Source: Methanolobus psychrophilus R15 (lineage in GTDB: Archaea; Halobacteriota; Methanosarcinia; Methanosarcinales; Methanosarcinaceae). From it: a DNA stretch of 64,000 nt. A program made the translations under genes and the position numbers. The notes under the pieces were generated by a model. It searched no databases, was not told the DNA's origin, and saw nothing but the letters and a program-made list of their open reading frames with translations. This document shows positions 15,040 through 26,850 of this stretch, in pieces (positions within the stretch are counted from its first letter, which is position 1; each line of letters starts with the position of its first letter). Location: assembly GCA_000306725.1 (NCBI GenBank), contig CP003083.1:744001-808000 (forward strand). Direction: 5' to 3'.

Positions 15040-15999
15040 GTGCTCATGAAAATATTTCCTGGTGAGCCAAACTCTGCACATGCAGGAGAGCATGGAACGG
15101 TCGATCCTTTGATCCTGAGCACGGAGAAAGGGAAAAAAGCCGTCAAAACATCTTTTATGGGCTTGGTTGTGATTGCAGCCATCCAGGTTGTCATTGTGTA
15201 CATATCAGGCAGTGCAGCTCTGCTTGCAGATACATTCCATAATTTTAGCGATGCAGTGACTACAGTACCCCTATGGATAGCCTTTTCTATAGCTAACAGG
15301 AAACCAAACCGAAGGTTCACATACGGATATGGGCGTGCAGAGGATGTTGCAGGACTGGCCATAGTAGCCCTGATCCTATTCAGTGCATTGTTTGCTGCCT
15401 ATAACACCATTATGCTCCTGCTTGATCCCGGAACCATAGCTTATGTGGAAGTTGTGGCCCTTGCAGGAATAGTGGGTTTTGCAGGCAATGAGATGATAGC
15501 GCAGTACAGGATAAAGATCGGGAAAGAAATAGGCAGCGCTGCACTGATGGCAGACGGATATCATGCCCGAAGTGATGGCCTGACAAGCCTGGCAGTCCTG
15601 CTGGGAGCCATCGGAGTCTGGCTTGGTTACCCGCTTGCAGACCCAATAGCTGCTATTTTTATAACCTTCGCCATATTGAAAGTTTTCTGGGACTCCGGTA
15701 AACTGGTGTTTGGCAGGCTGATGGATAGTGTCGATCCGGAAGTGGTTGATGATATATTGCATGCTATTGGCCATGTAGAAATGGTTCTGGACATAACCGA
15801 TGTCAAGGTCAGATGGATAGGCCACAGGATGCATGCGGAAATAACAATTGCTGTAGATTCCAGCCTTTCTGTAAAGGAGGGTCACGACATAACCCGGGAA
15901 GTCAGGAACTCACTGGCCCGGCATGTGACATATCTTTCCGGCACGACAATTCATGTTGAACCTGAGGATGCCTCCGGCAAATGCAGTCTGCAGGTATGA
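15040..15999 (+). CDS. Cation diffusion facilitator (CDF) family metal exporter
   Basis: CDF proteins exchange cytosolic Zn2+, Fe2+, Mn2+ or Co2+ for protons across the membrane. This roughly 319-residue protein has six membrane segments. The metal-site motifs are LLADTFHNFSDA in segment 2 (HxxxD) and ADGYHARSDGLTS in segment 5 (HxxxD), followed by the C-terminal cytoplasmic domain with histidines (GHVEMVL, GHRMHAE). The start is uncertain: GTG 15040 and ATG 15046 have a weak GGTGG upstream, while a better AGGAGG at about 15001 would suit an ATT codon at 15016. The metal cannot be told from sequence alone. It appears monocistronic. Confidence 0.93.
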   Translation: MLMKIFPGEPNSAHAGEHGTVDPLILSTEKGKKAVKTSFMGLVVIAAIQVVIVYISGSAALLADTFHNFSDAVTTVPLWIAFSIANRKPNRRFTYGYGRAEDVAGLAIVALILFSALFAAYNTIMLLLDPGTIAYVEVVALAGIVGFAGNEMIAQYRIKIGKEIGSAALMADGYHARSDGLTSLAVLLGAIGVWLGYPLADPIAAIFITFAILKVFWDSGKLVFGRLMDSVDPEVVDDILHAIGHVEMVLDITDVKVRWIGHRMHAEITIAVDSSLSVKEGHDITREVRNSLARHVTYLSGTTIHVEPEDASGKCSLQV

Positions 16000-16124
16000 A
16001 CTGCCGTTCTGAAAAAATAATGCCTGAACCGGCAAAATAAAAAATAATCCACGAATATATGACCTTTTTAGGCAAATACGAAGAGCAATTAGATTCACTT
16101 TTATATTAGAATCTACTCTATAGG

Positions 16125-16290
16125 CTAAAACAGTACAATCCAAGGTAGATGAGGCGCCTGGAAACCACCACGCTTTAAGGCGCCTCTCTCCTAACGAATC
16201 CGAGATGTTCCCCAACATCTCTCAATTAATCCACTCCCAGATTGCGGCTCATTCCCCACGACCCGCAACACATACAACGTCCTATTTTTA
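16125..16290 (+). ncRNA. Candidate structured C-rich small RNA
   Basis: Three stem-loops follow one another: 16151-16186 (GAGGCGCC/GGCGCCTC), 16202-16221 (GAGATGTT/AACATCTC with a CCCC loop) and 16242-16268 (TTGCGG/CCGCAA). A run of five T at 16285-16289 follows. A TATA-like TTTATATTA at 16099-16107 would start a transcript near 16130. Loops and linkers repeat unpaired UCUCC, UUCCCCA and ACUCCCA motifs that are complementary to ribosome binding sites. Nothing in this stretch codes for protein. It may be a trans-acting small RNA of the type known in Methanosarcina; identity with a named RNA is not claimed. The remainder of 16000-16626 is AT-rich, and 16291-16626 should hold the marC promoter. 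Confidence 0.5.
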
Positions 16291-16626
16291 TATAACCTAA
16301 ACCTTGCACAATTTGGCTTGGCTGATTAATATTGTCTGATCGTTGAACATTGTACAAGATATGATATTCATACAATGCCTCTTATTTTAACGCCGTTGAA
16401 ACTTAAGCACTTATTATCCAATTTCATAAAGGAAAGAACATAAATCCTGAATATTAATAAGTAATATAAGTTACAGTCTGAAGGAACTATATCACTAAGC
16501 AATGGTACTTCTGAAACAGTATCGTTTACGTAATTCTATATATCTGCCAAATGACTGCTGGTGATTACGGACCACAAATGTTATTTATAGTAAAAATGTT
16601 TCTAAAAACGGTTAGGAGTAATCACA

Positions 16627-17268
16627 GTGCAGGACATGGCATTCTTTCTTGGCTCTTTTCTTTCCCTTTTCGCTATAGTCAGTCCCTTGAGCGGGGTTGT
16701 GACCTTTGTCTCGCTCACGAACAGCATAACATTTGAAGAGAAGAACATAATTGCAAATAAATCAGTGATACTTGCCTGTATCATAGCCCTCTTTTTTGCT
16801 TTTACAGGGGGCCTTATCCTGGATTTCTTCGGCATAACCATAGATTCGCTCAGGATAGCGGGAGGTGTCCTTCTCTTTGTAGTCGCGTTTGATATGATAC
16901 TTGGAAAAGTTTCCCGCGAAAGCATAACTGATAGCGAGATAGATAGTTCCATTGATCGCAGCGACATATGGATATTCCCGATAGCTCTGCCTCTTCTTAC
17001 CGGACCTGGAACCATATCCACAGTGATCGTGCTGATGAGCAGTGCGGCTTCTGTGATACAGAGCATCAGTGTCATTGTATCAATATTACTTACGTTCGCC
17101 ATCAGCCTTGTACTATTCAGGTTCTCAAGAAGGATATACAAATTCATGGGATATACCGGGATGCTGGTATTCACAAGGCTGATGGGCCTTCTGCTTGCAG
17201 CCCTGGCTGTTAATTTTATCGCGACTGGATTGTGGAATACATACGTGTCATTCATTACCCTCTCCTGA
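16627..17268 (+). CDS. MarC/UPF0056 family membrane protein
   Basis: This 213-residue protein has six hydrophobic segments and the MarC-family features: IVSPLSGVVTFVSLT at the first membrane segment and PIALPLLTGPGTISTVI in the middle. The family (also called SnatA/UPF0056) has been linked to small amino acid transport in one archaeon, but most members have no proven substrate. GTG at 16627 is chosen because AGGAG lies about nine bases upstream; ATG at 16636 is an alternative. It precedes the P-type ATPase by 80 bases in the same direction. Confidence 0.9.
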   Translation: MQDMAFFLGSFLSLFAIVSPLSGVVTFVSLTNSITFEEKNIIANKSVILACIIALFFAFTGGLILDFFGITIDSLRIAGGVLLFVVAFDMILGKVSRESITDSEIDSSIDRSDIWIFPIALPLLTGPGTISTVIVLMSSAASVIQSISVIVSILLTFAISLVLFRFSRRIYKFMGYTGMLVFTRLMGLLLAALAVNFIATGLWNTYVSFITLS

Positions 17269-25912: not shown

Positions 25913-26850
25913 ACGTTACCGAGATGATCAGCTCCCTGCAAGCCATCCCGGGTATCGTGCTCAGCACGGTGGGCGCAGTACTTGTACTCATTATAGCCAT
26001 TGTAATAGGAAAAGGGCTGACGACATACTTGCAGAGGTCGCTTAAGGACAAGATAGACAAGGGACATCTTGACATCCTGATCAAGGTGAGCTATTACGGT
26101 ATAATAACACTGGCTATTGTAGTTTTCATCTTCCCGCTGACAGGCATAGAGAGCTCTGGCCTTCTGGTTACAGGAGGAGTGCTGGGTATAGTTATTGGTT
26201 TTGCTAGCCAGAGCATTGTGGGAAACCTAATATCGGGCTTTTTCCTGATAGTTGAAAGGCCCATAAAGATAGGTGACCAGATAAATATTGCCAATAATGT
26301 CGGGTTCGTGGAGGACATCAACATCTTCTCCACCATCATAAGAACCTTTGACGGGCTTTATATGAGGATTCCAAACCAGACAGTATTCACTTCCAATATC
26401 ACCAATTATGTCGCGAACATAACAAGAAGGTTCGAGTATGTTGTGGGAATCCGCTACAGCGATGATGCTGATGAGGCCATCAGGATCATACGCGAGATCA
26501 TCGATAATGAGCCCTTTGCCCTGAAGAATCCCCCGGCAGGTGTCTTTGTAGACACTCTGGGTGACAATTCGGTAAACATAATAGTAAGGATATGGGCTCC
26601 GATCACCGAGTGGTTCGAAATGAAGACCAGGCTTCTCTGGGTCATTAAAAAGACATTGGAAGAGAACGGTATAGAGGTACCCTTCCCACAGAGGACCATA
26701 TGGTTCCCTGGTGAATTGCATACAAGGAAACTTCCGGCTAAAGGAATGGATGAGTTCCCTGAAGCAGAGAAAGGATACCCCCTGGTGGAAGAAACACAGG
26801 GTCTTCCGGAACTGCACGAGGGAACAACAGAGGGAGGAAAGAGCGAATGA
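25909..26850 (+). CDS. mscS: Small-conductance mechanosensitive channel, MscS family
   Basis: MscS heptamers open under membrane tension to release osmolytes. This 313-residue protein has three membrane segments. The third, pore-lining helix is ITGGVLGIVIGFASQSIVGNLISG-like, with alternating Gly and Ala (spanning about residues 84-110). The beta domain follows (IGDQINIANNVGFVEDINIF, MRIPNQTVFTSNITNY) and then the C-terminal vestibule domain. It overlaps the DUF432 gene at its start and the first GH57 gene at its stop, both by ATGA. Its presence inside the glycogen operon suggests joint control of turgor and carbon storage. Confidence 0.95.
   Translation: MNVTEMISSLQAIPGIVLSTVGAVLVLIIAIVIGKGLTTYLQRSLKDKIDKGHLDILIKVSYYGIITLAIVVFIFPLTGIESSGLLVTGGVLGIVIGFASQSIVGNLISGFFLIVERPIKIGDQINIANNVGFVEDINIFSTIIRTFDGLYMRIPNQTVFTSNITNYVANITRRFEYVVGIRYSDDADEAIRIIREIIDNEPFALKNPPAGVFVDTLGDNSVNIIVRIWAPITEWFEMKTRLLWVIKKTLEENGIEVPFPQRTIWFPGELHTRKLPAKGMDEFPEAEKGYPLVEETQGLPELHEGTTEGGKSE

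Follow-up and report, generated by a model that had tools for sequence, protein, structure and literature searches.

A predicted multicopy family of structured non-coding RNAs in Methanolobus with a phased operator-like array and frequent FilR1-type regulator neighbours

A Structured Element between the CDF and marC Genes

The window analysed here is a stretch of 64,000 nt from the genome of Methanolobus psychrophilus R15. It encodes a cation-efflux (CDF) protein at 15040–15999 and MarC at 16627–17268 (both assigned by Pfam), and the region between these genes contains promoter-like boxes, hairpins, and a series of repeated sites. A TATA-like sequence on the plus strand, TTTTATAT (16099–16106), is kept at the orthologous locus and possibly belongs to a convergent promoter. 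Three hairpins follow, none of them assigned to a strand. H1 (9 bp; 16151–16159 paired with 16178–16186) encloses a conserved 18-nt loop that reads GGAAACCACCACGCTTTA on the plus strand; H2 (8 bp; 16202–16209 paired with 16214–16221) has the loop CCCC, or GGGG in the opposite reading; and H3 (6 bp; 16242–16247 paired with 16263–16268) is the most variable of the three. The linker between H1 and H2 (16187–16201; TCTCCTAACGAATCC on the plus strand, GGATTCGTTAGGAGA on the minus strand) is nearly invariant in the alignment of copies discussed below. A plus-strand T run at 16285–16289 was taken to be a terminator in the original prediction, which was made from this sequence before the present analysis. 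We recovered the TATA-like box, the three stem-loops, and the T run where that prediction had placed them, with H1 measuring 9 bp.

Folded as a plus-strand RNA, the element reaches −45.4 kcal/mol, compared with −28.9 ± 3.3 kcal/mol for dinucleotide shuffles (z = −4.96), and none of 200 shuffles folds as well. The C-rich loops that had drawn attention to it are present on this strand. The conserved block around the RNA extends to approximately position 16406 and includes a phased operator-like array. The alignment of copies contains no conserved coding frame in the RNA unit, and a 1-nt indel in the H1–H2 linker (CCTAACG or CCTTAACG) shifts the frames between copies, so the unit is non-coding, as had been anticipated.

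A Dispersed Family in Methanolobus and Related Genera

A plain DNA search of the R15 genome (3,072,769 bp, one contig) returned 24 matches, nine of which stand out with at least 86% identity over nearly the full unit. A covariance model built from 45 copies identifies 27 copies or part-copies in the same genome. Among 27 Methanolobus genomes, this model finds copies in 12, with 1 to 37 in each, and none in the other 15. The loci examined contain 66 arrays, of which 49 have one unit and 17 have two units in tandem. On this genome comparison, the predicted window RNA is one gene of a multicopy family of structured non-coding RNAs in Methanolobus. The family is absent from Rfam: the window RNA has no match in release 15 at either gathering or permissive thresholds, and a search of the distant loci returned only PYLIS_1, elsewhere in locus L122.

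Weak covariance-model matches also occur in other Methanosarcinaceae genera, and these retain the hairpins, the C-rich linkers, and the 3' tail. They look real, which suggests that the family has distant relatives elsewhere in the Methanosarcinaceae. Three loci in one other genus (L118, L120, and L121) each hold a single orthologous relative, in which H3 is very different and the CCACUCCC linker and the 3' tail are the same. Two of them (L118 and L120) have the same two genes downstream, encoding by eye a DJ-1/PfpI-like and a carboxymuconolactone-type ORF.

Conservation and Covariation

The copy between the CDF gene and marC is syntenic in five species. Pairwise identity in the intergenic alignment is 89% over the RNA, compared with 79% at the end of the CDF gene, 54% in the 5' flank, and 49–60% in the 3' flank. 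Judged by these identities, the locus is under constraint; gene conversion among copies could inflate the conservation of the RNA.

Compensatory changes are found in 9 of 23 base pairs and amount to 37 cells, compared with 8.6 ± 2.5 in shuffles. They affect four pairs in H1 (94.8% of cells paired), three in H2 (99.2%), and two in H3 (81.4%, MAFFT alignment). Sliding the partners by 1–3 columns reduces pairing from 93% to 39–63%. Because the copies are paralogues, the counts of compensatory changes are not independent, yet consistent variation across species is seen in each of the three stems. Both the covariance model and the compensatory changes show the stems to be conserved in relatives. 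The structured non-coding RNA of the original prediction is upheld to this extent, but its description as a single sRNA is not, since the family is dispersed and multicopy.

A Minus-Strand Promoter and an 18-nt Ladder

Beyond H3, the order on the plus strand is TATWTAACCTAAACC-N4-TTAAT, a stretch of variable length, and the palindrome TTTTAACGNCGTTAAAATTTCA; read on the minus strand, this conserved 3' block is a ladder of sites followed by ATTAA-N4-GGTTTAGGTTAWATA. The window copy has a putative minus-strand core promoter, GGTTTAGGTTATATA (16289–16303), composed of a box A, TTATATA (16295–16289), and the upstream sequence GGTTTAGG, and the same arrangement is seen in nearly all copies. Upstream of it on the minus strand is an operator-like ladder of degenerate sites (16304–16384), consisting of 9 nt and four 18-nt units (16313–16330, 16331–16348, 16349–16366, and 16367–16384). 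The ladder ends in a palindrome, TTTTAACGCCGTTGAAACTTAA (16385–16406, strand unassigned), which is probably the site of a dimeric regulator.

With up to 6 mismatches allowed, the palindrome occurs in 48 of the 66 arrays and in 3% of random 200-mers. It lies 27, 45, 63, 81, or 99 nt from the end of the model (9+18k, with k = 1–5), a few copies being off by one nucleotide. Similarity to the palindrome peaks near −18, −36, −54, −72, and −90 nt, and this 18-nt periodicity indicates that the variable stretch is a ladder of degenerate palindrome copies. The window ladder is longer by one whole 18-nt step than those of four orthologues. In several loci of other genera, the palindrome is found at or near step 27. 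An operator array that is strictly phased at 18 nt and varies by whole steps only would be an unusual promoter architecture, and because of this regular phasing the binding of a regulator is directly testable. The operator-like sites as a set (16304–16406 in the window and their equivalents in L038–L092) comprise 1–5 steps, and copies differ by whole steps only. Coding sequence was rejected for the 18-nt array as well: 29 of 52 arrays have stop codons in every one of the six frames.

The Transcribed Strand

The family is probably transcribed from the minus strand. The spacing between box and hairpin and an excess of A-C pairs place the predicted RNA of the window at 16127–16269 on this strand, from the base of H3 through H3, H2, and H1 to UGUUUUA near 16127–16133. 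The TTAWATA box is separated from H3 by 20 nt in 32, and by 21 nt in 11, of the 46 copies measured. This fixed spacing favours the minus strand, as it matches the distance between TATA box and transcription start published for R15, where promoter elements lie approximately 19–22 nt from starts (Li et al. 2015, PMC5378194). Among non-Watson-Crick pairs, counted once per pair and genome on the plus strand, A-C outnumbers G-U by 55 to 23 (28 to 12 in the 60 best copies); since an A-C pair on the plus strand is a G-U wobble on the minus strand, this excess also argues for the minus strand. Moreover, the minus promoter block precedes, in the same direction, three small zinc-ribbon genes or remnants in the R15 genome (at 2063434, 2862645, and 2931284), and a search of the 15 RNA-negative Methanolobus genomes found the block in none of them. 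Both this distribution and the retention of the block in other genera favour the minus strand.

Other measurements favour the plus strand or neither. Of 60 arrays, 45 have a plus-strand TATA-like box 26–60 nt ahead of the unit, compared with 8 of 60 control windows, and the consensus-fold z of −12.7 for the plus strand and −5.8 for the minus strand favours the former. For the single sequence, the corresponding values are −4.96 and −3.28. The share of paired cells hardly distinguishes the strands (92.4 vs 94.5%). Folding energy was rejected as a test: the minus strand is lower by 11 kcal/mol, which is uninformative, since a gap of about this size is also obtained after shuffling. A terminator is established on neither strand, since the plus-strand T5 occurs in only 30 of 66 copies, and so is kept less well than the TATWTAACC block that it overlaps, and the upstream A4 runs, which would be U4 in a minus transcript, are no commoner than in controls (38 vs 33 of 60). 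A palindrome, CC-N-AGG, before the plus TATA box was considered as a general 'cold box' and discarded, as it was found in 16 of 51 copies, mainly regulator-linked and hence homologous ones.

Promoter-like boxes at both ends of the unit are what would be expected of a mutual antisense pair, in which convergent promoters give rise to overlapping plus and minus RNAs and regulation occurs through their pairing into a duplex. Li et al. (PMC5378194) report mutual antisense sRNAs from some intergenic regions of R15, but the distance of the plus TATA box varies here, and outside Methanolobus the box is not evident. We consider transcription of both strands a substantial possibility that nonetheless falls short of even, and place regulation by an antisense pair in the same range.

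A plus-strand, C-rich RNA that acts in trans by masking ribosome-binding sites, in the manner of Listeria LhrC or the Methanosarcina mazei sRNA162, is unlikely. It would account for the plus TATA box and the consensus-fold z, for the near invariance of the loops UCUCC, UUCCCCA, and CCACUCCC, and for the H3-loop sequence CCCCAC, whose complement GUGGGG is seen on inspection in the leaders of zinc-ribbon genes. However, the preference for A-C over G-U pairs and the limited retention of the T run weigh against it, and the plus TATA box is not evident in other genera. Moreover, when single-stranded segments of the plus strand were paired with the start regions of 51 regulator genes linked to the RNA and of 111 further R15 genes from the genome stretches examined, the duplex energies equalled those of shuffled segments. 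Against the three zinc-ribbon starts, three segments fell only within the 10–15% tail, which is insignificant. Shine-Dalgarno masking, the function first suggested for the RNA, thus finds no support in translation-start pairing. The plus-strand reading that accompanied it is well founded in its TATA box but doubtful as a whole, the minus promoter being the most conserved and the A-C pairs the more frequent.

Linkage to FilR1-Type Regulator Genes

Many RNA copies adjoin paralogous genes whose products, approximately 261 aa in length, combine a FilR1_middle domain (PF08350, formerly DUF1724) with an N-terminal PF25213. Twenty-one of the 66 arrays begin no more than 300 bp (mostly approximately 80 bp) 3' of the stop of a FilR1-type gene with the same orientation. 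When orientation is disregarded, 32 arrays have such a gene within 300 bp; 25, including the window copy, have none within the locus examined. FilR1_middle genes number 12–57 in genomes with at least seven RNA copies and 6–20 in genomes with none, and RNA copy number and FilR1_middle gene number are correlated (Spearman rho 0.71; Mann-Whitney P = 0.0003, phylogeny being ignored in both). Two of the weak matches, L117 and L119, from two other genera, also adjoin a FilR1-type gene. PF08350 is expanded to 27–57 genes in seven Methanolobus genomes (G000, G006, G008, G011, G013, G016, and G022), compared with 6–20 in the 15 RNA-negative genomes.

It is very improbable that the units are selfish or passive interspersed repeats (MITE- or REP-like DNA) whose hairpins serve mobility and which have no RNA function: the scattering of the copies, the tandem pairs, and the decayed fragments would fit, as would the transposase-like ORF pair near three copies, but not the synteny in five species, the conservation above the flanks, the dedicated promoters, or the preference, in several genera, for one gene family as neighbour. 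We give as little credence to a cis-acting 3' or 5' UTR element of FilR1-type genes that multiplied as these genes were duplicated. The 21 arrays immediately 3' of a FilR1-type gene with the same orientation would fit, but the 25 arrays without one in the locus examined include the window copy, and others are convergent with, divergent from, or upstream of the gene.

The transposase-like ORFs form an identical short pair (VNCPKCNSFNNKKNGKINGLQRYQC... and VMTDNWKAYAEFLPDEVHTRSKAET...) within approximately 4 kb of RNA copies in L038, L041, and L048. At the end of the R15 contig (L043:6590–6770), a fragment of the RNA unit runs directly into a truncated FilR1-type coding sequence.

Relation to Known Small RNAs

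In 2015, Li et al. (PMC5378194) reported that R15 has nine cold-induced sRNAs, which are highly conserved, are induced at 8°C, and have a 'cold box', a conserved motif upstream of their promoters. The organism is the same: in the genome analysed here, a PAS-HisKA-REC gene spans position 26,651 and an Hsp20-like ORF is located near 77 kb, in agreement with Mpsy_0031 and Mpsy_0075 of that paper. The nine published sRNAs can be set beside the nine near-full copies (at least 86% identity) of the DNA search, although the model matches number 27. The published upstream motif may correspond to the conserved blocks upstream of the minus promoter of the family. Because nine copies in the R15 genome stand out at this identity, the family described here probably corresponds to the cold-induced sRNAs. 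Parts of the main text of the 2015 paper make no mention of hairpins, linked regulator genes, an 18-nt ladder, or relatives, and a search of one literature library returned no follow-up work on these sRNAs. If the correspondence holds, our results would supply the structure, strand, promoter logic, and relatives of a class that has been unexplained since 2015.

The sRNA162 and sRNA171 of M. mazei are trans-acting, have three stem-loops and a length of 191 nt, and were duplicated together with their neighbourhood (PMC3510493). Each adjoins an ArsR-type regulator gene (MM2441 and MM2446), and the start region of MM2441 is a binding site for sRNA162 (PMC3510493). The present family resembles them in its three stem-loops and its duplication; a FilR1/ArsR-type gene (FilR1_middle) is a neighbour at about half of the arrays here, and not at the window copy. 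They differ in the single-stranded linker between the second and third stem-loops, which is 39 nt in sRNA162 and approximately 20 nt (H2–H3) here, and in copy number, which is one or two for sRNA162/sRNA171 and at least 20 for this family. In addition, sRNA162 pairs with the regulator start region, whereas duplex energies for this family equal those of shuffled controls. We compared sRNA162 by its published description and do not claim membership.

Multicopy families of sRNA have been described in bacteria, and the characterised archaeal sRNAs are a handful, mostly single-copy. We know of no described archaeal sRNA family that reaches 20–30 copies per genome and co-expands with a transcription-factor family. 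Among the bacterial families, Listeria LhrC carries C-rich motifs. It is likewise a small, multicopy RNA (PMC4132741), and on a plus-strand reading the likeness extends to the conserved C-rich motifs. LhrC differs in being bacterial, and the strand used here is probably the opposite one. Sponge RNAs of the CsrB/RsmY type consist of hairpins and linkers that expose repeated GGA-containing motifs. Read on the minus strand, the present family would similarly expose G-rich, GGA-containing motifs, with an enrichment that is modest; to our knowledge, CsrA is not known in archaea.

Possible Mode of Action

The minus strand of the window RNA contains the G-rich segments GUGGGGAA, GGGAGUGGAUU, UUGGGGAA, GGAUUCGUUAGGAGA, and GCGUGGUGG. 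It has seven GGA motifs, compared with 3.4 expected from shuffling (P = 0.027), and three of the seven are mostly unpaired, as are the GGGG and GUGG motifs. The most economical model may be one in which the RNA acts in trans, its exposed G-rich segments serving as binding sites for a protein or for a complementary RNA.

In this model, the main transcript would be a minus-strand RNA of approximately 140 nt that starts at the base of H3, near 16268, and continues through H3, H2, and H1. A regulator would bind the phased sites cooperatively and switch on the RNA copies together with the small zinc-ribbon genes, possibly in the cold. The RNA would then act in trans through the single-stranded segments between its hairpins (GUGGGGAA, UUGGGGAA, GGAUUCGUUAGGAGA, and GCGUGGUGG). 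These segments could titrate an RNA-binding protein that recognises GGA- or GUGGGG-like sites near ribosome-binding sites, or they could pair with a C-rich target RNA, including the plus transcript, as a second promoter on the plus strand may yield an antisense partner. With its three parts combined, a multicopy minus-strand RNA, a regulator at phased sites, and G-rich segments acting in trans, we favour this model with modest confidence.

A more elaborate version, an archaeal sponge-RNA circuit, is speculative and on present evidence improbable. In it, the co-expanding minus RNAs would titrate a protein, and the linked FilR1-type paralogues would control them through the 18-bp ladder, with 1–5 steps per gene; the titrated protein might be one of the small zinc-ribbon proteins whose genes share the promoter. 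The zinc-ribbon genes themselves (L155, L157, and L158) span approximately 80 codons, some with in-frame stops, and by inspection their leaders contain GUGGGG-like G-rich motifs.
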